Below, piece by piece: positions 40,332 through 53,201 of a DNA stretch of 54,497 nucleotides. The notes beneath the pieces were generated by a model. That model did no database searches. It saw only the letters and a list, made by a program, of their open reading frames with translations, and was not told where the DNA came from. The stretch spans positions 1-54,497 of the forward strand of contig CALVGZ010000014.1 of the NCBI GenBank assembly GCA_944327225.1. Direction: 5' to 3'. The stretch's first letter is position 1, and each line of letters starts with the position of its first letter. Made by a program: the position numbers and the translations under genes. This stretch comes from Candidatus Gastranaerophilales bacterium (GTDB lineage Bacteria; Cyanobacteriota; Vampirovibrionia; Gastranaerophilales; Gastranaerophilaceae).

Positions 40332-40717
40332 TGGAGATGGCGAGAGTCGAACTCGCGTCCGAAATGATACCGAGGCGATATCTACATTCATAGGCACTTT
40401 TATCTTAAACTATAACCGGAAAATTACCGCAACCAATCAAAGTCCAAAGACAATTTTAAAGATTGCCAACTTCATTTAACTAAAACTTGACGTATGCCGC
40501 CAAATGAAAACATACGCTGTACTTGCATAATTGACCCTACACGCCGGCAAGTTGGGCATATAGAGTGGCTGTCGCTACTATGCAGCGATTGCTCTAGGAG
40601 CAAAATCAGCTTTTACAACGTTATTAGCGTTTATTTTTTTGAAAAGTTTAACGAGTTATTCGGCTCGAAATGCAACCGCAACGATAAACTTCACCCCGTC
40701 GAAACCTTTACATCCCC
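40332..40717 (-). ncRNA. ssrA: Transfer-messenger RNA (tmRNA)
   Basis: A one-piece tmRNA of about 386 nt. The 5' end (40717) reads GGGGATGTAAAGGTTTCGAC and pairs with CATCTCC at the 3' end (40333-40339; discriminator A at 40332); the T-arm GGACGCGAGTTCGACTCTCGCC is intact. CCA is not encoded. The tag frame starts at GCT (40628) and reads ANNVVKADFAPRAIAA then two TAG stops (40575-40580). The ANNxV start and AA end match cyanobacterial-type tags. It rescues stalled ribosomes and tags products for proteolysis. Confidence 0.95.
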
Positions 40718-43018: not shown

Positions 43019-43042
43019 AAAAGCCACTTACAAGTGGCTTTT
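43019..43042 (-). terminator. Displaced tRNA-Glu terminator (shared with XRE gene)
   Basis: AAAAGCCACTT / AAGTGGCTTTT hairpin. The longer T-run (TTTTTTGTTTT) follows on the minus strand, as expected for a terminator of the minus-strand tRNA-Glu. It sits 2-3 bases from a copy of the tRNA 3' end (43045). The two tRNA-Val genes here have hairpins in the same position after CCA. Confidence 0.7.
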
Positions 43043-43044
43043 AA

Positions 43045-43053
43045 TGGTACCCC
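43045..43053. repeat. attL: left copy of the 9-bp attachment core
   Basis: TGGTACCCC repeats the reverse complement of the tRNA-Glu 3' end (GGGGTACCA) found at 53126-53134. The identical bases stop at position 43053, after four C instead of five. Confidence 0.7.
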
Positions 43054-43189
43054 ATATTGAGAAAAATTCGAAACAAATCGTTCTTGAATTGTACCAATTG
43101 TATGAATTAAGAAATGTTGCTTAGATACTAAAAAATTAAATATGTAAAATAATATATTTTTAATATAATATTTAGTTGAAAGGAATTAA

Positions 43190-43780
43190 ATGAAAAACCG
43201 ATTAAATAATTTAATAAGATGGATTTTATTCTTCATTGCATACTACCCTTTGTTTCTAATATTGCTAATCCAAAATTCAAAACTAATTGATAGGGTTTTT
43301 AGTTGTAATTTTGTTAATTTTAAATTTGTAGAATTGAATGATCCTTTTTTATGGGGAATTAGTCTGGGGTTGATAATTTTTATAACAATTATTATATTCC
43401 TAAAATTTCAAGCAAATACAAACACGATACAGTATAAAGTTTTGTCTGTGAAGGATATTTCTCACGAAACTTTAAATTATATATTAACATATTTAATAGC
43501 CTTTTTGTCTTTAGATATGAATAGTCCTAAAACTATTTTATCTATTATAATATTACTTTTTATAATAGGTGTTATCTACATAAATTCTAATATGCTATAT
43601 GTAAATCCAATATTACAATTATTAGGTTATTCTATATATGAATTAAGTACAACAAGGTATGGCACAAATGAAGAATATAAAATTATCGCAATTTCTGAAA
43701 TTGGAAAGATTAAAAAATGCGAATATGTTGATATATCATTGGTAAATGAAGGTGTTAAAAATATATATTTTGTAAAATAA
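43190..43780 (+). CDS. kwaA: Probable Kiwa membrane protein KwaA
   Basis: A 196-residue protein with about four membrane helices (about 9-28, 52-72, 90-106, 109-130), then a cytoplasmic tail beginning YVNPILQLLGYSIYELSTTR and ending in short beta segments (EYKIIAISEIGKI, YVDISLV). Size, topology, tail and the DUF4868-like gene just downstream fit KwaA, the membrane partner of the two-gene Kiwa antiphage system, which detects phage at the envelope. TATAAT at 43164-43169 and GAAAGGA before the ATG. Family match is from memory of features, so moderately sure. Confidence 0.65.
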   Translation: MKNRLNNLIRWILFFIAYYPLFLILLIQNSKLIDRVFSCNFVNFKFVELNDPFLWGISLGLIIFITIIIFLKFQANTNTIQYKVLSVKDISHETLNYILTYLIAFLSLDMNSPKTILSIIILLFIIGVIYINSNMLYVNPILQLLGYSIYELSTTRYGTNEEYKIIAISEIGKIKKCEYVDISLVNEGVKNIYFVK

Positions 43781-43854
43781 CTTAATAATAAGTTTAAATC
43801 CTTTTTTTATAGTATCATGAGCATGGAAGTTTTAATTATAGAGGAAAAGTTGTA

Positions 43855-44856
43855 TTGCCACATAATTTTTTATCATATGCAAATAGAATAAAAGAAATTG
43901 TTGAAACTGCAAATAGTCAGCAATTAATATTTTTTAAAAGAAAGAAAAGTGGTAGTACTTCAAAATATGAAGCTTATAATTTCGAGTTAGATCAAAACAG
44001 TATTGGTCAAAATCTAAAAAACATTGCAGTTTCAAGTGTTGAAATAAATAGAAGTTGTCAATTAAAAGCCTACACAATAGAACTTGACACAAATGAAAGA
44101 AATACTATATATGAAATTTCTTCAAGTGATGTAGGAAATTTTAGAAAGATTATAGATGCAATGTCAGATAGCTCTCTTAACAGAATAAACGTAGCTACAA
44201 CGGAAGATATTGATCCTAATTTTTATATATTGAATTTTGACAATAATGATGAACAAGTAATGGCATTTACTCATTATTCTCCTGCAACAACATTTAAGGG
44301 AAAATTGATTTTTAAAAACCAAGCTGAGATATATGATAAATGCCTATCAATAGCTACATATGTTCATTGTTTATACTACAGGATAAAATTAGAAGATCAA
44401 CAATATATAGAAAATGTTGTGATTTTTAAAAATGGCAAATCAAAATTTGAACAAATTTTTGACTACAAAGAAGATTATAGGGCTAGGGCAACGGCAACAA
44501 TTAGAGAACTTGAAAATTTGAATTTAATATCTAATGCAGATGCTTTTGAATTAAAAGCAATGACTGATGAATATTTTATAAGAAAATTAGCTAAAATTAA
44601 TCTTGAGAACAAAATAGAAATTGTTAGAAATAATTTTGAAAGTTTAGTAAAAGCAAATAATGATTTTCAAGAATTGGGGGTACAAATAAATACCAATACT
44701 CGAACTATTTTAATACCTCATAATGCAGACAAAAATTATATAAGAAGTGTTTTATCTTTACTTAATACAGAACCAATGCAAAATTTAATATCACAAGCAA
44801 AGGTATTAATACCGGATAACAATACACCCGTTCAACAAAGATTTTTTTTAGCCTAA
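43855..44856 (+). CDS. kwaB: Probable Kiwa effector KwaB (DUF4868-like)
   Basis: A 333-residue soluble protein. The middle has VVIFKNGKSKFEQIFDYKEDYRARATA then REFY-type FIRKLAKIN, the pattern of DUF4868 (V.F.nGk..F...FDf...Y...A...L..L...R.LAK). KwaB works with KwaA and blocks phage DNA functions. The start is a TTG at 43855 with GAGGAA 8 bases upstream; there is no better ATG. It lies 74 bases after kwaA and ends 6 bases from the convergent NACHT gene with no visible terminator. Confidence 0.65.
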   Translation: MPHNFLSYANRIKEIVETANSQQLIFFKRKKSGSTSKYEAYNFELDQNSIGQNLKNIAVSSVEINRSCQLKAYTIELDTNERNTIYEISSSDVGNFRKIIDAMSDSSLNRINVATTEDIDPNFYILNFDNNDEQVMAFTHYSPATTFKGKLIFKNQAEIYDKCLSIATYVHCLYYRIKLEDQQYIENVVIFKNGKSKFEQIFDYKEDYRARATATIRELENLNLISNADAFELKAMTDEYFIRKLAKINLENKIEIVRNNFESLVKANNDFQELGVQINTNTRTILIPHNADKNYIRSVLSLLNTEPMQNLISQAKVLIPDNNTPVQQRFFLA

Positions 44857-44862
44857 ATACAA

Positions 44863-47800
44863 TTATTTAATATAATCTTTTGTATACTTTTCGCATATTA
44901 AATCAATATATGTCTGGATATTAAATTGTTTTTTGTTTTTATATATGTATATTGTTGACCAAAAGAAATTATATAATATAAAAATAACTATTGATGATAT
45001 TAATGTCGTTATAAAAAACTTTTTTGTTAATTTTATAAGACATTTAAAATTTTTTAGAAAACAATTTAGAAGCTCTTTTATAATTTTATTTATTTGAAAA
45101 ATTATTGGGTGATAAATTTTATAGCTATCAATATAGTCCATTTCATAAGCTAAATAACATAATATTGAAGTATAGTTTTCTCTTTTTAATAATTTTAAAA
45201 TCAAATTTTGATTATCTTTTGTTATGTAATTTCTTATAAACCAATTATCAAGATATATAAATCTATGATTAAAATATTTTCGATTTATAGCATTTTCAAT
45301 ATTAACAAATGTATTACCAACAAAGCATATCATTTTTTTTATAGTTTTGTTTTTTAATTTTAATCTAAAAGTATCTATTCTCCAAATTACTGAATTACAG
45401 ATACGACTAATATAAAAGATAAAATGTCTACTCAAAGTGTTTTTTAAAGGTATAGATTTGATTAATTTTATTGAAAATTCTACTAAATCTTCATTATTTG
45501 GGCAATTTAAACAGTTTTGATATAAATCTAATAAGTAATCATTTCTTTTATCTTTTTTATTTTTATCGAGAATTAAATTCATTAAACAATTTTTATACTC
45601 TCTCTTATTTTGATCGTCTATATCAATATAAAATATAGCATATATTATTGATTTGTCGTCAGTATATTGAATTGATTTAAGGAACTCAATGATGGTATCT
45701 TTGAATTGAGTATGTTCCAATGCAATATGCCCTAACCAATTAATACATTCAAAATCATCGACATTATTTTTTATATGCTCTTTTAATATACTAACTGCTT
45801 GTGATATTATTTCTTCTGATTTTGCAATCATGCCTGTAACATAAGCTAAACAAGGTAGATTGTCGTATAGATCATTATCAGCATCGGTTTTTACAGTATT
45901 AAATAATTCAATTATATAATCATTTTCTTTATACTTTGGATGTGCAAGCATACATAAAAGACTTTTTTGTACTTTTATAAATCGATTATCAAATAATATG
46001 ATTTTTATAAATTCTTTTTGTTCTTCTATTGTAAAGCTTTCTAAAGTTTGTCTTAATTCTACGGAAGGAGATATAAAACCATTTTCTATATTTAAAACAA
46101 GTTCATCTAAACAATTATCATTTCTTGTTTCTAAATAAGTTTTTATGCTGATGTTAATTTTATCAAAAAATGATATTGCAATCCCAACTTCTTTTAAAAT
46201 ATCTTCATTTGTTGTTTTATCTCTTAAAAATGATTTCAGTTTACCTGTAAAAATAGATTTATTTTCACCATATTGATTTGCTAATGCTTCATTTTGATAA
46301 AGTTTGTATAATCTATTAACATATTCAGAATTATTAGGAATTATATCAGATAATATATCAATAACTCCTCTGACATACCACCCTTCTCTTTCTTTTTGAT
46401 AGTCATATTTTATAGGATTTTCAATTCTTTCAATAAAAAAATCTATAGTTTTAATATCATCATAAGCACAACTTTTGAAAGCTTTTTGAAATAAATCATA
46501 TGAATATTGTTTATTTCGTTCTTGATATATCTCAAATAAAAGATTTTTAAATTTGATAGTATTATAATTTAAATTCGCCAGTTTATTTATATAGGTTGTA
46601 AATGGAGCTTTTTTATCTCTTTTTCTCCAAGCTTTTTCTAGTCTATTATATAAAAGATTGCATAAACATTTTCTATCTGTATTATAAGTAACATTTGCCA
46701 AATCTAATAAATAAACAGAATCTTTATTTTTCTTATTTTCTTCAATTTCTTTATCATCAGTTAAATTATAATAATCTTTTGTTATATCAATAAATTTGTT
46801 TAATAATTTCTTTTTGTTATTTTTTGCAATATTCTTATACTCTCCTAATATTTCACAACACAACAAAAAAGCTCGTTTTTGATACCATCCGGATGTTTTA
46901 TCTTTAAACTTTAATATTCTATTAAAACATTTTATTTTTTCTTTATCAGAAATGGTCTCTATGCCAAACCAAAATATTATCGTTTGTTTCCAATTGGCTG
47001 AGAAAATATTATATATGTCATTTTTGTAGTCTAAAAAATCATTAACAGTTCCTTTATTAGCGAGAAATAAAGCAGAATAATAATCTTCGAATAATTTGTG
47101 TACAAATTGATAACTATTTCCTATTGGAACTAGAAGCTGTAATTTTAATAATAGTTCACTACTTGGATTTATCTCATTATTGAGTTTTAAATTGTAGGCA
47201 ATACTGCAAAGTTCTTCTAAAAGATGCTTTCTATTTACTTTGTCAATTAATTTTTCATCACATAAAACATCAAAAATTTGTTGTATAAAATCACTTTTTG
47301 AATGAATTGTATTGATACTTTCTGGATTAGATTTATAAATTCTGCACAATAAAGCTAAAAATAATGGAGTTTTTGAAAGTGTGTAGAGATCATCTTTGCT
47401 TTTTATGGCACTATATAATTTATCTGCATTCGGTTTGCCTAAAAAGAACAGTAAATATTCTAAAATCTGTTGAGTGCTAAATGCTTGAATATTTAATAAA
47501 TCAAAATTGTTCAAGTACATTGAACTTGTATTTCTTGAAGCAATTATAATATTAAAGTTTAATTTGTTTCTAAATAATTCATTATTTAAGAGGTTTCGAT
47601 AATTTCCACAATACTCATCTAATCCATCCAATAAAAGATAGAAGTCTTTATTAACAGTATTATTAAGATTATTAGCTTGTATAATAACTTTAGTTTTTAT
47701 ATTGTCAATTTCAAAACCTGTTAAATATTTAATATATTCAAGTAAACCTCTTTGAGCATTTTCTTTTTGCCATAATCCAAAATCTTGTAAAGAGATAAAA

Positions 47801-48078
47801 ATAGGCAATTTATCATTTTGGTATAAATCTTTATATAGCATCTTAAGAAATTGCGATTTTCCTTGTCCACCATTTCCTAGTATTGCCAATTTATTTTGTT
47901 CAGAAGCATTTAGTAACAAGTCTAGTATGTTATTGTAATGAACCGTTTTATTAGTATCATTAACAAATTCTGTTACGATATAAGACTTATCAATTTCTTT
48001 TTCTGAAAAAAAGTCAAAAGATTTATTTTCTATATCTTTTTCAATATATTGTTTGAGATTTGCAATATTTTCATCCAT
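44863..48078 (-). CDS. NACHT/STAND NTPase with C-terminal membrane segment
   Basis: A 1071-residue NLR-like protein. NACHT core: Walker A GNGGQGKS (68-75), Walker B YLLLDGLDE (147-155), sensor IIIASR (177-182), TPLFLALLCRIY and the winged-helix end YQFVHKLFEDYYSALFLA. Then about 650 residues of helical, probably repeat, sensor. A hydrophobic helix lies near 1023-1045 with a short tail. Only about 60 residues precede the NTPase, so there is no recognisable N-terminal effector such as a nuclease or TIR. In bacterial STAND defence proteins the repeats sense a phage product and the NTPase drives assembly; here the membrane segment could be the effector. Specific function is inference. Confidence 0.8.
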   Translation of the reverse strand: MDENIANLKQYIEKDIENKSFDFFSEKEIDKSYIVTEFVNDTNKTVHYNNILDLLLNASEQNKLAILGNGGQGKSQFLKMLYKDLYQNDKLPIFISLQDFGLWQKENAQRGLLEYIKYLTGFEIDNIKTKVIIQANNLNNTVNKDFYLLLDGLDEYCGNYRNLLNNELFRNKLNFNIIIASRNTSSMYLNNFDLLNIQAFSTQQILEYLLFFLGKPNADKLYSAIKSKDDLYTLSKTPLFLALLCRIYKSNPESINTIHSKSDFIQQIFDVLCDEKLIDKVNRKHLLEELCSIAYNLKLNNEINPSSELLLKLQLLVPIGNSYQFVHKLFEDYYSALFLANKGTVNDFLDYKNDIYNIFSANWKQTIIFWFGIETISDKEKIKCFNRILKFKDKTSGWYQKRAFLLCCEILGEYKNIAKNNKKKLLNKFIDITKDYYNLTDDKEIEENKKNKDSVYLLDLANVTYNTDRKCLCNLLYNRLEKAWRKRDKKAPFTTYINKLANLNYNTIKFKNLLFEIYQERNKQYSYDLFQKAFKSCAYDDIKTIDFFIERIENPIKYDYQKEREGWYVRGVIDILSDIIPNNSEYVNRLYKLYQNEALANQYGENKSIFTGKLKSFLRDKTTNEDILKEVGIAISFFDKINISIKTYLETRNDNCLDELVLNIENGFISPSVELRQTLESFTIEEQKEFIKIILFDNRFIKVQKSLLCMLAHPKYKENDYIIELFNTVKTDADNDLYDNLPCLAYVTGMIAKSEEIISQAVSILKEHIKNNVDDFECINWLGHIALEHTQFKDTIIEFLKSIQYTDDKSIIYAIFYIDIDDQNKREYKNCLMNLILDKNKKDKRNDYLLDLYQNCLNCPNNEDLVEFSIKLIKSIPLKNTLSRHFIFYISRICNSVIWRIDTFRLKLKNKTIKKMICFVGNTFVNIENAINRKYFNHRFIYLDNWFIRNYITKDNQNLILKLLKRENYTSILCYLAYEMDYIDSYKIYHPIIFQINKIIKELLNCFLKNFKCLIKLTKKFFITTLISSIVIFILYNFFWSTIYIYKNKKQFNIQTYIDLICEKYTKDYIK

Positions 48079-48155
48079 AAATGAATTATACTTTAAACAA
48101 ACTGTCTATAAAATTATGTTATAATCAAATTAATATTAGTAACAGGCATGAAATA

Positions 48156-48356
48156 ATGAATAAATACTGTCCAAAATGTAGAACTGAAAATCTTGCTATA
48201 GTTAATGCTTCCGAATGGAATAAAAGTGATCCTATTGAACCGACAGAAATAATTATAGATTTTGAATGTATAGAATGTGAAAATAAATATTCTCAAAAAA
48301 TAATTTTTAATTCTTTAAGTAAATATTTAAGCTTTTTGGATGGTTATAAATATTAA
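48156..48356 (+). CDS. Small zinc-ribbon protein
   Basis: From the ATG at 48156 the 66-residue product has two CxxC knuckles: CPKC near the N-terminus and CIEC near residue 42, separated by an acidic stretch. This is a likely structural zinc ribbon. An upstream in-frame ATG (48081) sits 3 bases from the divergent NACHT start and lacks a ribosome site, so the internal ATG is preferred; ACAGG lies upstream of it. Divergent from the NACHT gene and ends overlapping the XRE gene by 4 bases. Role unknown. Confidence 0.6.
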   Translation: MNKYCPKCRTENLAIVNASEWNKSDPIEPTEIIIDFECIECENKYSQKIIFNSLSKYLSFLDGYKY

Positions 48357-48673
48357 TCTATAATCCCGCTCAAAACTTTATAAGCCAGTTTTATTTCCTC
48401 ATCTGTTGCTTTGTTTAGCATTGTTTGGATGTCTTGCAGGAGTTCTTTTGTATCTTTCTGATGATTAAACATATAAAGTTTATAAGGCTCAACATTTAGT
48501 GCTTTAGCAATCTTTTCTAAATTATCATCTGTGGGGTGAAAATGTCCACTTTCTATTTTGCTAATACTAGAAGCACCTATTTCTGTTAATTCAGATAAAT
48601 CCTCTTGAGTTAAATTTCTTGCCACTCTTATTTCTCTAATTCTTTTTCCTAAAAGTTTTTTCAATTCAGACAT
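48353..48673 (-). CDS. XRE-family regulator of the element
   Basis: A 106-residue protein with an N-terminal Cro/C1 helix-turn-helix (LGKRIREIRVARNLTQEDLSELTEIGASSISKIESG) and a short C-terminal helix pair. GAGGTGAAAA precedes the ATG. It is divergent from the membrane-protein gene at 48831 across a 157-base gap that contains a perfect 16-bp palindrome, the expected layout for a self-regulating repressor. Confidence 0.85.
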   Translation of the reverse strand: MSELKKLLGKRIREIRVARNLTQEDLSELTEIGASSISKIESGHFHPTDDNLEKIAKALNVEPYKLYMFNHQKDTKELLQDIQTMLNKATDEEIKLAYKVLSGIID

Positions 48674-48803
48674 TTTTCACCTCACAATATATTTTTTATG
48701 AAATAGTGGTAAAAATGAATTAATCTTAACCGCATAATAAGTTGAATTTCTTTTATCTTTATGTAAGTATATATGCATAGTACAAAATAAAATTAAATAA
48801 AAT

Positions 48804-48819
48804 TTGCATTTAAATGCAA
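48804..48819. promoter_or_regulatory. Perfect 16-bp palindrome, probable operator
   Basis: TTGCATTTAAATGCAA is fully self-complementary and lies just before the AAAGGAAG ribosome site of the 48831 gene. Likely target of the divergent XRE protein; alternatively a small hairpin in the mRNA leader. Confidence 0.5.
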
Positions 48820-48830
48820 GAAAGGAAGTC

Positions 48831-49817
48831 ATGAGTAGATTTAATAATTTCTTATTATGGGTATTTATTAGCTTTTCTTTTATTCTTTCATTAGCTCTTA
48901 TGTCAGATGAAAACAGTATTTTATTAGGTCAATATTTTTTTGTTTTAGGATTATGTTTAATTCCTAAAATAAAAAAATTAATTAATAACAAAATAGCCGA
49001 AATTCTGTCAGTTTTGGATAAAAATAATAATAGCGAAAAGTCAATCACAAAAGGACTAGAAAAGAAAATTGGCATTATAAAATTTACTGTCTTTTTTATG
49101 GCATTCATATTTATTGTAGCAAGTTTACCTCAACAAGAAAATTCCAATATCACTCAAAATAACGCAACTCAAAATCAAGAAATAACGCAAAATAAATACA
49201 TTGATAATAAAAATACTAAGAAAATATCTAAGGCTTTGAATATTAATAGGATGGAAGCAAGTAATATATATGAAATTCTTCTTAATTGTGGAGTTGATAA
49301 AATACATTGGATTGAAAAAATAGAAGATATAGAAAATGCGTATTTTATACATTTAGAAAATATCATTGAACCATTAAAAATAAGCCTAAAAGATAATAAA
49401 TTGGAACATGTATTTTATGATACTTGGAGTTTATACGATAACGGAAAATATGATGGCAATTTGTCTGATTACAGTATAACTCTTGATGAAAAATTTGCTT
49501 TAAAAAGACTTAGTAAAGAAAATATAAATATCAATTTAAAATATCCTCAAAATTCTAAGTATAATGAAAATAGTTGGAATATAACAAAAATGGATAATGA
49601 ATACGCTGTTTCTTGTAGTGTTGATGCTCCCAATACGTTTGGTATGCTTGTTACGCATCAATTCTTTTTAACATACAAAAAAGAGAATGAAAAATTTATT
49701 CTAACGTCAATGAAATCTGATGAGAATAATATAATTAAAACTAAACAAATTCAGTCAAAAATAACTCCAGAAGATAAAAAAAGCATTAAAGAACTAAATA
49801 AAGCTTTGGGATTATAG
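48831..49817 (+). CDS. Membrane-anchored protein, unknown
   Basis: From the ATG at 48831 (AAAGGAAG at 48821-48828) a 328-residue protein with two helices near the N-terminus (about 6-23 and 28-44) and a third near 83-100, then an Asn/Gln-rich linker (ENSNITQNNATQNQ) and a polar domain of about 200 residues. Within that domain, KISKALNINRMEASNIYEILLNCGVDKIHWIEKI looks like a small helical module repeated in style at the C-terminus (KKSIKELNKALGL). No family recognised. Probably controlled by the XRE regulator. Confidence 0.6.
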   Translation: MSRFNNFLLWVFISFSFILSLALMSDENSILLGQYFFVLGLCLIPKIKKLINNKIAEILSVLDKNNNSEKSITKGLEKKIGIIKFTVFFMAFIFIVASLPQQENSNITQNNATQNQEITQNKYIDNKNTKKISKALNINRMEASNIYEILLNCGVDKIHWIEKIEDIENAYFIHLENIIEPLKISLKDNKLEHVFYDTWSLYDNGKYDGNLSDYSITLDEKFALKRLSKENININLKYPQNSKYNENSWNITKMDNEYAVSCSVDAPNTFGMLVTHQFFLTYKKENEKFILTSMKSDENNIIKTKQIQSKITPEDKKSIKELNKALGL

Positions 49818-49869
49818 CAAAAAGCACAATTTTAGAAAAATTAGTATAATAGCCATAGGAGATAATCTT

Positions 49870-50406
49870 ATGGCTACTTTAAAACAGCAAAAAGCAAACA
49901 AATTAAATTCTTTAAAAGGTGGAGTAAAAACTCATGCCGGAAAAGAAGTTAGCAAAATGAATGCTTTAAAATATGGATTTTTCAGTAAAATAGTTACGCA
50001 GTTTGACAAACTAGATAATTCTGATTTCTGTAATGAAATTTATAACTGTTTTAATCCCATTAATGAATATGAAAAACAATTAGTTGAAATTTTACTATCA
50101 AATCTATTAACATTTAGAAGAATTTGTTTTATCGAAAAAGAGTTTATTGAAACAAAACTAAATCCAGATGTAAAAATGGACTTTGAAGTTTGTATAAAAG
50201 AAGGATATAAACCTGTTATAGAGTTAAATTTACTTGATGATTTGAACAAATTTCAAAAATACAAAACAAGTATTCAAAATAATATTATAAAAATACAGCA
50301 TGAATTAGAAAGACTTATTAATAATAGATACACTACTGATAAAATAATACCAAATTCAGTAGATATAAATGTTTTAACTACAAATGGGTTCGTTTTGGAA
50401 AATTGA
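49870..50406 (+). CDS. Element protein with 'NALKxG' N-terminal motif, unknown
   Basis: A 178-residue protein. The start KQQKANKLNSLKGGVKTHAGKEVSKMNALKYGFFS matches a motif (A-N..N..K..G.KT..GK..S..NALK.G) recurrent in small proteins of phages and integrative elements; function not known. The rest is helical. TATAAT at 49845-49850 and TAGGAGA before the ATG. Confidence 0.6.
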   Translation: MATLKQQKANKLNSLKGGVKTHAGKEVSKMNALKYGFFSKIVTQFDKLDNSDFCNEIYNCFNPINEYEKQLVEILLSNLLTFRRICFIEKEFIETKLNPDVKMDFEVCIKEGYKPVIELNLLDDLNKFQKYKTSIQNNIIKIQHELERLINNRYTTDKIIPNSVDINVLTTNGFVLEN

Positions 50407-50420
50407 TTTACATTTCTTAA

Positions 50421-50478
50421 ATTATACTTGTATGTATAATTTTAATGCACTATAATAAATTATACATTGAGGTATAAT
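50421..50478 (+). promoter_or_regulatory. Promoter with two operator-like dyads
   Basis: Two copies of the inverted repeat ATTATAC-N6-GTATAAT, at 50421-50440 and 50459-50478, start 38 bases apart. A TTGTAT box (50428-50433) lies in the centre of the first and TATAAT (50451-50456) 17 bases on; the second dyad covers the expected start of transcription and abuts the ATG at 50481. Typical of autoregulation by the MerR-like product. Confidence 0.65.
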
Positions 50479-50480
50479 TT

Positions 50481-51431
50481 ATGAGTAATGAAATTGAAAA
50501 AGAAAGCTTTAATCCTAAGTTTTTAAAAATAAAAGATTATAAAACTGTAGAAGAATATAAAAATGATTTTTTTGTAAAAAATATTGTTGATACTACTGAA
50601 TATTATGAATTAGCTATATTAAATTCTTATTTTATTTATCCATTTTTATCGTTAAAATCTATCTCACAGGCATCTCAAGAATTATATGGTTCAGATAAAT
50701 TAGAAATAACTTATCGAAAAGTAAATGATTGGGGTTCTAAGGGTTTATTTGAAGATAATAGGACAAGTAGTATTCAATGGCGAAAATACTCTGTAAATAC
50801 AGGCATAAAATTGCTAATAATAAACGATTTAAAAAAGTTTGGCTATTCAAATGAACAAATAAAATACATCTTAGCTCAAATATGTGAAGATAGTTGTAGT
50901 GTACTTGTAAGAAACAAAAAATTTAATTATAAATACTTTGATTTTTATGCATCAACATTTTATAAAACTGGTATAAATTTTTTAATAATGATTGATAATG
51001 ATTGCAACGCATTTTATTTAACTGAAAAAGATTTAGCATTAAATATTACAGATAGTTTAGATATTTCTAAGCCACATTTAATATTGCCATTTTCAAAATA
51101 TTTACAGGTTTTTGCTAAATATATATTTAATCGTGAAAATGAAGGTGTAATCACAAAGTCCATTTCATTATCAGAGGAACTACCAAACGGTAATGAAAAA
51201 TATCTTATTGAGCAATTTCGCAATAATGAAAATGAAGAAATACACATAAAAAATAAGAAATCAGATAATTCAAAAATCGTTAAAACAAAGAAAACAATTA
51301 ATAATATAAAATTATCTGATAAAGAATTTGTAAATCTTTGTAAGAAAGATAAACATAAGAAAATAACTTCAACTGTTAAAGATAATGGAAATTACGATAT
51401 AACAATTGAAGAAACCGAAAAATTAAGATAG
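50481..51431 (+). CDS. MerR-like DNA-binding protein of the element
   Basis: A 316-residue protein whose residues about 55-130 resemble a MerR-type winged helix: SISQASQELYGS, VNDWGSKGLFEDNR, WRKYSVNTGIKLLIINDLKKFGYSNEQIKYIL, matching the W...GL...R...WR.Y......L..I..L...G.s...IK.IL pattern. The C-terminal half is lysine-rich and unfamiliar. Two identical dyads in its promoter suggest autoregulation. Position just upstream of the recombinase suggests a control or excision role (inference). Confidence 0.6.
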   Translation: MSNEIEKESFNPKFLKIKDYKTVEEYKNDFFVKNIVDTTEYYELAILNSYFIYPFLSLKSISQASQELYGSDKLEITYRKVNDWGSKGLFEDNRTSSIQWRKYSVNTGIKLLIINDLKKFGYSNEQIKYILAQICEDSCSVLVRNKKFNYKYFDFYASTFYKTGINFLIMIDNDCNAFYLTEKDLALNITDSLDISKPHLILPFSKYLQVFAKYIFNRENEGVITKSISLSEELPNGNEKYLIEQFRNNENEEIHIKNKKSDNSKIVKTKKTINNIKLSDKEFVNLCKKDKHKKITSTVKDNGNYDITIEETEKLR

Positions 51432-51505
51432 TGGCAATAAGGCACATTGAACTATTTTAATAGTTACAACTAAATATTTTAAGGTGGCAATGAGGTAAAT
51501 TGAGC
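51431..51505. repeat. Pair of 22-bp direct repeats
   Basis: GTGGCAATAAGGCACATTGA-AC (51431-51452) and GTGGCAATGAGGTAAATTGA-GC (51484-51505) match at 18 of 22 positions and start 53 bases (about five helical turns) apart. Candidate binding sites for a regulator or accessory recombination factor upstream of the 47-codon gene and recombinase. Confidence 0.55.
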
Positions 51506-51532
51506 CTTAATACAAGCAATAAGGATCAAAAA

Positions 51533-51676
51533 ATGCTTAGTATTGAGGTTTGCCGTAAAATTTTAGGTGTTAATGAAAGTGAAGTATCAAATGAAGAACT
51601 GGAAAATATTAGATATAGCCTTTACCAAATTTCGCAAGTGCTAATTAATCAATATCTTGAGGAAAAAACATTATGA
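51533..51676 (+). CDS. 47-residue protein coupled to the recombinase
   Basis: ATG at 51533 with AAGGAT 6 bases upstream; 47 codons ending in TGA that overlaps the recombinase ATG as ATGA (51673-51676). The product (MLSIEVCRKILGVNE... then NIRYSLYQISQVLINQYLEE) looks like two helices. Similar short frames often sit before large serine recombinases; it may help control integration or excision. That role is inference. Confidence 0.7.
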   Translation: MLSIEVCRKILGVNESEVSNEELENIRYSLYQISQVLINQYLEEKTL

Positions 51677-53166
51677 ATGCAGTTATTTATACAAGAGTAT
51701 CTACAACAGAACAAGCTAAACACGGATATAGTTTGGCAAGCCAAGAATTAGAATGTAAAAAGTTTGCTGAAAAAGAAGGCATGAAGGTTGTTAAAATATA
51801 CAGAGAAGAAGGTGTTAGTGCAAAAACAACTAATAGACCACAATTGCAAAACTTAATTAAATTTTGTATAGAGAATAAAAAATCAATCAATTGTATAATT
51901 GTTTGGAAATTTGATAGATTTACCAGAAAATTAGAAGACCAAATTGAGTTATTTGGGAAAATGCAAAAATATAATATAAGAATTTTATCAGCAACCGAAA
52001 ACAACGAAGAAAGTGCTATTGGTAATTTGGTAAGAAATGTAATTGGTACATTTGCTCAATTTGAAAATGATATTAAATCAGAAAGAGTTACAGCCGGCAT
52101 GAAAGAGGCTTTTTTGCAAGGTAATTGGCTTTGGAAAGCTCCTATTGGCTACAAAATGATAGGTAAAAAATTGTATATTGATGAAATAAAAGGCTCACAT
52201 ATCAAAAAGATTTTTGAAGATTTTGCTACTGGACTTTACAGACAAACAGATTTATTAAACTACTTAAAAGACAATAATATTAAAATAAGTGCAAATACAT
52301 TATGCGATTTATTAAGAAAACCTGTTTATTATGGATATTTAGTAAATGAAAAATATTCAAAAGAACCTATAAAAGGAGATTTTGAACCAATTGTTGATGA
52401 ACAAACTTTTTATAGGGTTCAAGCTATTCTAAATGGCAATAAGGCTCAAGCAGTACCACATTTAAGACAAAATCCTATGTTTCCGTTAAAACAATTTATT
52501 ACATGTCCTTATTGCAATCAATCGCTAACAGGAGATACTCCACATGGAAGGAAAGGTCAAAAGTATTATTACTATAGATGTTATAACAAAGATTGTATAG
52601 CTCATTTTAATATTTCTAAAGACAAATTGGAAAATAATTTTGTAGAATATTTAACAAAAATAAAACCAGATAAATCGTTATTAAAGTTGTTTAAAACTAT
52701 CATGAATGATGTATACAATAAAAGCACAGAAGAAGCTAGAAATAGCTATAATAGTTTTAATAAACAATTAGAAGGTATAAATAACAATAAAAGTAAATTG
52801 CTTGATTTATTAATTGAAGAAAAAATTTCTAGTGATGCTTATAAGATGAAAGTTGAACAATTTGAAAAAGCAGAATTAGACTTAAAATCTAAAATTGCAG
52901 TAAATGATATACCAGAAAATGATTTTAATGAATGCCTAGAATATGCCTGTAATGTTTTAGATAATCTAGATAAGTTTTGGCTTAATAGCAAAATTGATAT
53001 TAAAGAAAGATTGCAAAAAATAATATTTCCAAATGGATTAAGATACGAAAGTGGAGTTTTTCGAAACAGCCAAATGTCAAGCCTATTCAAAATAATAGGC
53101 ACCTTATCGGTGCCTTCTATTAATATGGTACCCCCAAGCGAATTCGAATCGCTGTCTACACCGTGA
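51673..53166 (+). CDS. Large serine recombinase (site-specific integrase)
   Basis: A 497-residue integrase. Catalytic domain 1-140 with Ser10 in YTRVSTTEQ and the KFDRFTR segment; recombinase domain about 150-260 (APIGYKM...LRKPVYYGYLVNEKY); zinc ribbon with C278, C281, C303, C308; coiled coil about 330-400; then a helical end with IIFPNGLRYESGVFRNS. The last 13 residues (MVPPSEFESLSTP) are read from tRNA-Glu antisense across attR, so they come from the host, not the element. It would integrate and, with a helper, excise this element. Confidence 0.93.
   Translation: MNAVIYTRVSTTEQAKHGYSLASQELECKKFAEKEGMKVVKIYREEGVSAKTTNRPQLQNLIKFCIENKKSINCIIVWKFDRFTRKLEDQIELFGKMQKYNIRILSATENNEESAIGNLVRNVIGTFAQFENDIKSERVTAGMKEAFLQGNWLWKAPIGYKMIGKKLYIDEIKGSHIKKIFEDFATGLYRQTDLLNYLKDNNIKISANTLCDLLRKPVYYGYLVNEKYSKEPIKGDFEPIVDEQTFYRVQAILNGNKAQAVPHLRQNPMFPLKQFITCPYCNQSLTGDTPHGRKGQKYYYYRCYNKDCIAHFNISKDKLENNFVEYLTKIKPDKSLLKLFKTIMNDVYNKSTEEARNSYNSFNKQLEGINNNKSKLLDLLIEEKISSDAYKMKVEQFEKAELDLKSKIAVNDIPENDFNECLEYACNVLDNLDKFWLNSKIDIKERLQKIIFPNGLRYESGVFRNSQMSSLFKIIGTLSVPSINMVPPSEFESLSTP
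53081..53114 (+). other. Two overlapping hairpins before attR
   Basis: GCCTATT-CAAAAT-AATAGGC (53081-53100) and GGCACC-TTATC-GGTGCC (53098-53114) share three bases, so only one can form fully at a time. They lie in the recombinase 3' coding end, 12 bases from the attachment core. They may be arms of the att site or a weak terminator; no T-run follows. Confidence 0.4.
53126..53134. repeat. attR: right copy of the attachment core in tRNA-Glu
   Basis: TGGTACCCC at the tRNA 3' end, direct repeat of 43045-43053. Confidence 0.7.
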
Positions 53167-53201
53167 AAGGGTGTTGTCCTAGGCCTCTAGACGATGGGGG
53201 C
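53126..53201 (-). tRNA. tRNA-Glu(TTC), attachment site of the element
   Basis: On the minus strand: acceptor GCCCCCA/TGGGGGT, D-arm with AGAGGCCTAGGAC, anticodon arm ACACC-CTTTCAC-GGTGT with anticodon TTC, T-arm AGCGA-TTCGAAT-TCGCT, encoded CCA at 53128-53126. The structure is intact because the element supplies or keeps the 3' end. It follows the 199-residue gene (stop at 53209) by 7 bases on the same strand and may be processed from that transcript. Confidence 0.95.

Follow-up and report, generated by a model that had tools for sequence, protein, structure and literature searches.

According to a description of 2014, tRNA genes were not known as targets of serine integrases (PMC4383910), and in a 2023 survey of Mycobacterium the attB sites in tRNA genes are attributed to tyrosine integrases (PMC10654092). 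An integrase C-terminus that is altered by integration is already known for both families. The streptococcal ICEs inserted in rumA carry a single serine integrase with the att site in the integrase gene, and the 3' ends of this gene are exchanged (Ambroset et al. 2016, PMC4701971). In the Myxococcus phage Mx8, attP lies in int, and integration gives the gene a new 3' end (Tojo 1996, Magrini 1999; PMC6070905, PMC4701971, PMC4383910). The mycobacteriophages BPs and Brujita show an integration-dependent immunity in which integration strips an SsrA-like tag off the repressor (PMC4557955).

The window analysed here is the whole 54,497-nucleotide stretch of contig CALVGZ010000014.1 from a Candidatus Gastranaerophilales bacterium. 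The explanation of this locus that we regard as probable, judging from the sequences compared, is that it holds an element targeting a tRNA gene, that attP lies within its int gene, and that integration swaps a conserved tail which would act as a regulatory peptide in the free state.

Structure and boundaries of the element

The integrative element is 10,081 bp long (43044-53124) and is seated in a tRNA-Glu gene between two copies of an exact 10-bp repeat, ATGGTACCCC. The left copy (43044..43053, plus strand) is the attL crossover region, while the right copy (53125..53134, plus strand) is the attR crossover region and overlaps the CCA end of the tRNA; the crossover dinucleotide falls somewhere within the first ~7 bases of this core. 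The attB target, tRNA-Glu(ttc), was identified with ARAGORN (53126..53201, minus strand) and is kept intact.

The empty site was found in a genome of the same genus (G013, contig L100), whose left flank is 98% identical over 494 bp. There, this flank, including a host terminator hairpin, is joined straight to ATGGTACCCCCAAGCG... / AAATGGTACCCCCAAGCG of tRNA-Glu, and the empty site is covered up to the point within tRNA-Glu where the contig stops. The empty site fixes the left boundary of the element and indicates that integration displaced the tRNA-Glu gene's own terminator. This hairpin, which adjoins tRNA-Glu in L100 and has a T-run in the tRNA direction, was moved by the insertion to the left end of the element (43023..43038). 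An intact tRNA at one end, a tRNA fragment at the other and an empty site in a relative together mark the element as one of the tRNA-gene type.

The element brings a new terminator for tRNA-Glu. The hairpin GGCACCTTATCGGTGCC (53098..53114) lies within the 3' end of int, with a T-run after it in the direction of the tRNA, and its stems co-vary across relatives by paired changes (GGCACC/GGTGCC, GACACC/GGTGTC, GACGCC/GGCGTC and GGAGCC/GGCTCC). The coding sequence of int doubles here as the replacement terminator on the other (minus) strand.

The recombinase gene (51673..53166, plus strand) encodes a large serine recombinase of 497 aa in its integrated isoform. The N-terminal resolvase, recombinase and zinc-ribbon domains (PF00239, PF07508 and PF13408) are present in one protein and score above the cut-off, the YTRVST motif is present with an invariant S10, and the protein matches PHROG 95 (integrase) and the A118 and TP901-1 integrases in the PDB. 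The gene is single-copy in its genome. Its frame crosses the right core (53125-53134) and ends antisense within tRNA-Glu as ...NMVPPSEFESLSTP and a stop. At the left end of the element, the same frame continues as MVPHIEKNSKQIVLELYQLYELRNVA, 26 codons followed by TAG (43044..43124, plus strand). Joining of the ends gives 510 aa against 497 aa in the integrated form, with an alternative tail of 23 residues.

As read from these frames, attP sits in the last codons of the recombinase gene, and when it recombines with the 3' end of tRNA-Glu, the last 23 sense codons of int are replaced by 10 tRNA-antisense codons; the junction of the joined circle would read ...SINMVPHIEKNSKQ... in frame. The layout is of the Mx8 type, with attP within int and free and integrated isoforms that differ at the C-terminus. 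The repeat, the frame, the tRNA overlap and the geometry of the sites described below all agree with the original prediction that attP lies inside this gene. Its description of the tail, 26 codons including MVP and a TAG ending at 43124, was likewise correct, except for the start at 43054, which is one base late because the CAT codon occupies 43053-43055.

Two genes upstream of int (50481-51676) are present in all relatives at tRNA-Glu and tRNA-His. The first (50481..51431, plus strand; PF13411) encodes a MerR-like HTH protein, a candidate recombination directionality factor, and was found in 14 related elements. The second is a 47-aa ORF (51533..51676, plus strand) which overlaps the start of int and is conserved in the same elements. 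The MerR gene of the window is 94-97% identical to that of tRNA-His elements whose integrase is just 41% identical, an imbalance which argues for an exchange of the MerR/47-aa module. A separate case is the element L032, in which the C-terminal half of the recombinase is identical to that of the window and the N-terminal half is clearly diverged, a pattern pointing to mosaic recombination within int; its MerR protein is 59% identical, and its tail and attP are identical.

Homologues of KwaA and KwaB, the Kiwa anti-phage defence pair, lie directly behind the left end (43190-44856; PADLOC). They are followed by a gene for a 1071-aa NACHT-type NTPase-like protein (44863-48078, minus strand; weak Pfam matches), possibly a second defence gene, for which PADLOC gave no match.

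Geometry of the attachment sites

Serine integrases bear an established signature, in that their zinc-ribbon motif is displaced by 5 bp from attB to attP (Rutherford et al. 2013, PMC3783163). The positions of the motif were counted from the base before TGG, the complement of the tRNA CCA end, and for tRNA-Asn from its own end. In attB, the T-loop motif TTCGAAYC stands at nt 19, and in attP a mimic of the type TT(C/G/T)GAAC stands at nt 24, within the codons of the tail; for tRNA-Asn the two stand at 16 and 21. All 22 of the 22 pairs compared, which come from five lineages, have exactly 5 bp between the attB and attP positions, and in L040 a T-loop variant, TTTGAACC, is identical in both sites. 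In the window, the T-loop of tRNA-Glu, TTCGAATC (53143..53150, plus strand), carries the motif in the attB register, while the mimic TTCGAAAC in the P' arm of attP (43067..43074, plus strand) lies 5 bp further out. The register shift confirms the position of attP within the gene by site geometry.

We infer from these registers that the zinc-ribbon domain of the recombinase binds the tRNA T-loop in attB and, in attP, the mimic displaced outwards by 5 bp. Such a reading of the T-loop would account for the ability of the relatives to move between tRNA genes. The first ~11 codons of the tail double as the P' arm of attP with its T-loop mimic.

Conservation of the tail

Relatives at tRNA-Glu and tRNA-His, with recombinases only 39-51% identical to that of the window, bear in-frame tails of identical length at their left ends, for example MVPQIENNWNRIVSDIRKFYELRNIA, MVPLVKTSWNRIVSDLRRFYELRHIA, MVLHLKKDLNQIIVTLQQFYELRNVA and MGRVLSFSSNQLLDDLQRFDELRRIC, each followed by a stop. 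The free-form tail proposed by the original prediction is supported by this conservation; moreover, in this lineage the homologues extend through the core and do not end before it. The recombinases of the tRNA-Asp, tRNA-Asn and second tRNA-His lineages, about 25-45% identical to that of the window, also read into their own tRNA, and wherever the left end was located they have conserved in-frame tails of about 36-41 codons, such as NGGKNASYIEPYILKLQQQLADKCSTKLIYMLNLWAVRKVA, NGGNYVANIERFLDRLKVQLSEQHSQKVIFMLKFLKERKIA and NGGLNAHRFELIVQRYVNNLDTQDTTKICYLINKLLKVA at tRNA-Asp, which are likewise closed by a stop. In all, about 28 tails were identified in five integrase lineages (tRNA-Glu, tRNA-His twice, tRNA-Asp and tRNA-Asn), all of them in frame; as elements of one lineage are kin, these counts are not independent. 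They cover elements with an identified left end, among which no out-of-frame tail was seen, and leave out those with the left end unfound or beyond the contig (e.g., L260, L262, L270-L273 and L315-L318, as well as the tRNA-Leu group L126-L128).

Two short tails were at first sight exceptions. The site of L323:9589 is a displaced tRNA fragment, and an in-frame tail (...SKLAA and a stop) lies 100 bp beyond it; that of L313:5444 has no full core and was read as a fragment too. Displaced tRNA 3' fragments beside the left end, remnants of other insertions in the same tRNA, were observed in L071:12-230 and L323:9589. In L043, L044, L045 and L046, C-terminal pieces of the recombinase flank tRNA-Glu or, in L045, a decayed end (with frame breaks in L044 and a cut by the contig end in L046), and these were classed as decayed elements.

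The changes in the tail were reconstructed by parsimony on the recombinase tree. Codons 4-11, the attP arm, showed 14, 18 and 13 changes at codon positions 1, 2 and 3, i.e., no periodicity, while codons 12-26 showed 32, 13 and 45 (position 3 minus position 2, permutation p about 1.4e-4). According to this contrast, the tail evolves like a protein in its distal part and like DNA in its proximal part. It also bears on the possibility that the left-end DNA is conserved for binding at attP alone and the open frame is incidental. That account suits the first ~11 codons, which hold the P' arm motif and lack periodicity, but the motif does not reach codons 12-26, which are strongly periodic and for which this account was rejected; the length, the frame and the stop are kept and the substitutions are synonymous-rich, so that for the tail as a whole it is highly improbable. 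The tails of the tRNA-Asp lineage, with dN < dS, replicate this coding-type conservation, and the conservation and the shared frame of the tails across five lineages rule out a chance open frame. The tail of the free state is, by these measures, a genuine conserved protein segment, and its selection as protein implies that it acts in the free state.

Naturally joined copies

The joined frame was found in two natural settings. In G210:C54, two elements stand in tandem at tRNA-His; the integrase of the downstream element reads into the tRNA (...NGAGSGIRTHA), while that of the upstream element crosses into the neighbouring element's left end without loss of frame, finishing as NGAGSGINLQPLYKFVAKQLIKTPIYELCA before the stop. 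In the viral (phage) contig L138, the recombinase gene lies mid-contig with no tRNA nearby, ends as ...PSWNPTLAWLRHLYDTLPRAA and a stop, and matches the free-form profile (HMM) through position 505 of 510. Inside this gene, the motif TTGGAACC is in the attP register, at nt 24 from the tRNA-end-like TTGGTGGACC, whereas the attB register is seen in related viral recombinases that lie next to tRNA genes.

These in-frame joins, together with the 497 and 510 aa of the two forms, bear out the predicted exchange of the C-terminus. Joined tails are carried by the tandem copy and L138, but no free copy turned up for the window's own lineage: a search for a free circle of this element or of its tRNA-Glu relatives returned, in 383 genomes of the order, only matches that end at or before the core. 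Contiguous free copies with the exact junction were likewise absent from the phage records, plasmid records, genomes of the order and viral contigs searched.

Terminal alanine and possible function of the swap

Of 29 tails, 24 end in alanine, compared with 3 of 352 ORFs of at least 200 aa (0.9%) in the same genomes. Terminal alanine was found in 9/9 tails at tRNA-Glu, 8/8 at tRNA-Asp, 4/5 in the second tRNA-His group, 2/4 at tRNA-Asn and 0/2 in the first tRNA-His group, and also in L138; the tails without it end in C and K (first tRNA-His group), S and L (tRNA-Asn) and E (second tRNA-His group). The commonest ending, [VIA]A-stop, resembles the SsrA tags of the hosts, which end in AA; the tag of the window's own genome is ANNVVKADFAPRAIAA (...AIAA). 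The tag ATATLYAQLAGV given by ARAGORN for the tmRNA gene (40332-40717, minus strand) is a misreading, the conserved tag being ANNVVKADFAPRAIAA.

Because of this SsrA-like ending, a turnover signal that is lost on integration is the function we prefer for the tail, although this is the least certain part of the explanation and is put forward tentatively, at somewhat under even chances. Since alanine is absent from five tails, a role as degradation tag cannot hold for all of them, and the conserved hydrophobic/FYELR stretch exceeds the needs of an SsrA-type tag. The tail would be an exposed, probably helical regulatory peptide, active only while the element is free. The integrase made from the circle would thus differ in stability or activity from that of the inserted form, and integration would remove either the turnover signal or a partner-binding helix.

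Another possibility is that the tail alters activity and not stability, the free isoform being competent for integration and the integrated one weaker or biased, which corresponds to the 'lock' suggested in the original prediction. The conserved amphipathic segment with its FYELR-like core would suit this role, and PMC4701971 describes the integrated form of the Mx8 integrase, in which a 112-residue C-terminus gives way to 13 residues, as less active. On the other hand, the tails differ strongly between lineages, and in the AlphaFold model of L138 the tail is a single helix outside the folded domain, with pLDDT <50. Moreover, serine integrases are directional without such a lock. They already require a directionality factor for excision, and a lock is therefore not required. 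On balance, this account seems unlikely, though not remote, and the conserved C-terminal alanine would point at least as much to a difference in stability, of the degradation-tag kind, as to a lock.

The swap may also be a tolerated side effect of the compact int-attP layout, with the tail as the native C-terminus needed in the free form and no regulatory consequence. Conservation of the tail as protein is compatible with this, as are the integrated ends, which are tRNA antisense, vary by lineage and are for these reasons unlikely to be under selection. The persistence of the arrangement in five lineages and at different tRNAs, with a bias to C-terminal alanine, hints at more, and we consider a mere side effect rather improbable, slightly more so than the change in activity.

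The recurrence of the arrangement in relatives that target four kinds of tRNA gene hints at an inherent mechanism by which the free and the inserted state yield different enzymes. A broader claim, that these enzymes form a widespread class of serine integrases which read the universal tRNA T-loop and, by means of attP in the gene, switch from a short-lived, tagged free isoform to a stable integrated one, is at present speculative and would go further than we expect to hold.

Comparison with known systems

In the literature searched, serine integrases that target tRNA genes, the T-loop/5-bp rule and a swapped tail conserved in five lineages appear to be new. Five lineages of one bacterial family target tRNA genes by a simple rule: the T-loop keeps a constant spacing from the tRNA end, and in attP its mimic is displaced outwards by 5 bp. 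This offers new pairs of att sites and the automatic detection of such elements. The arrangement also explains why annotated integrases of this kind end in peptide read antisense from a tRNA; the codons of their true C-terminus are found kilobases off, at the opposite end of the element. The conserved swapped tail is a testable case of a recombinase sequence that reports the integration state; if the switch from a short-lived free to a stable integrated form is true, this state would be written directly into the integrase.

The Listeria A118/LI serine integrase shares the domain order and, in attP, the outward displacement of the zinc-ribbon motif by 5 bp relative to attB (PMC3783163, PMC3556126; PDB 4KIS). 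Its target is comK, whereas the elements described here use the tRNA T-loop as the attB motif and have a coding attP. The archaeal integrases of the SSV type, named beside Mx8 in PMC4383910, also have the att site in the integrase gene. SSV-type integrases are tyrosine recombinases, and the catalytic domains of the window's enzyme stay intact after integration. Integration of the SSV type splits and inactivates the integrase gene.

BPs resembles this element in having attP in a coding sequence and a C-terminal extension in the free form (PMC4557955), the tag of the window's element being a matter of resemblance alone. In BPs, the repressor is swapped and the integrase is tagged but unswapped (PMC4557955), whereas here the integrase itself is swapped. 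Mx8 has attP within int and two isoforms, as in the window, but its enzyme is a tyrosine integrase, while that of the window has serine recombinase domains, and its change is from 112 residues to 13; a difference in activity between its isoforms is reported from experiment, while the window's element is known from sequence. In the rumA ICEs, too, a serine integrase has the att site within its gene and integration changes its C-terminus. Their target is a protein gene and not a tRNA, the exchange is described as changing the reading frame, and the available part of the description (PMC4701971) contains neither the conservation of a tail across lineages nor a reading of the T-loop.
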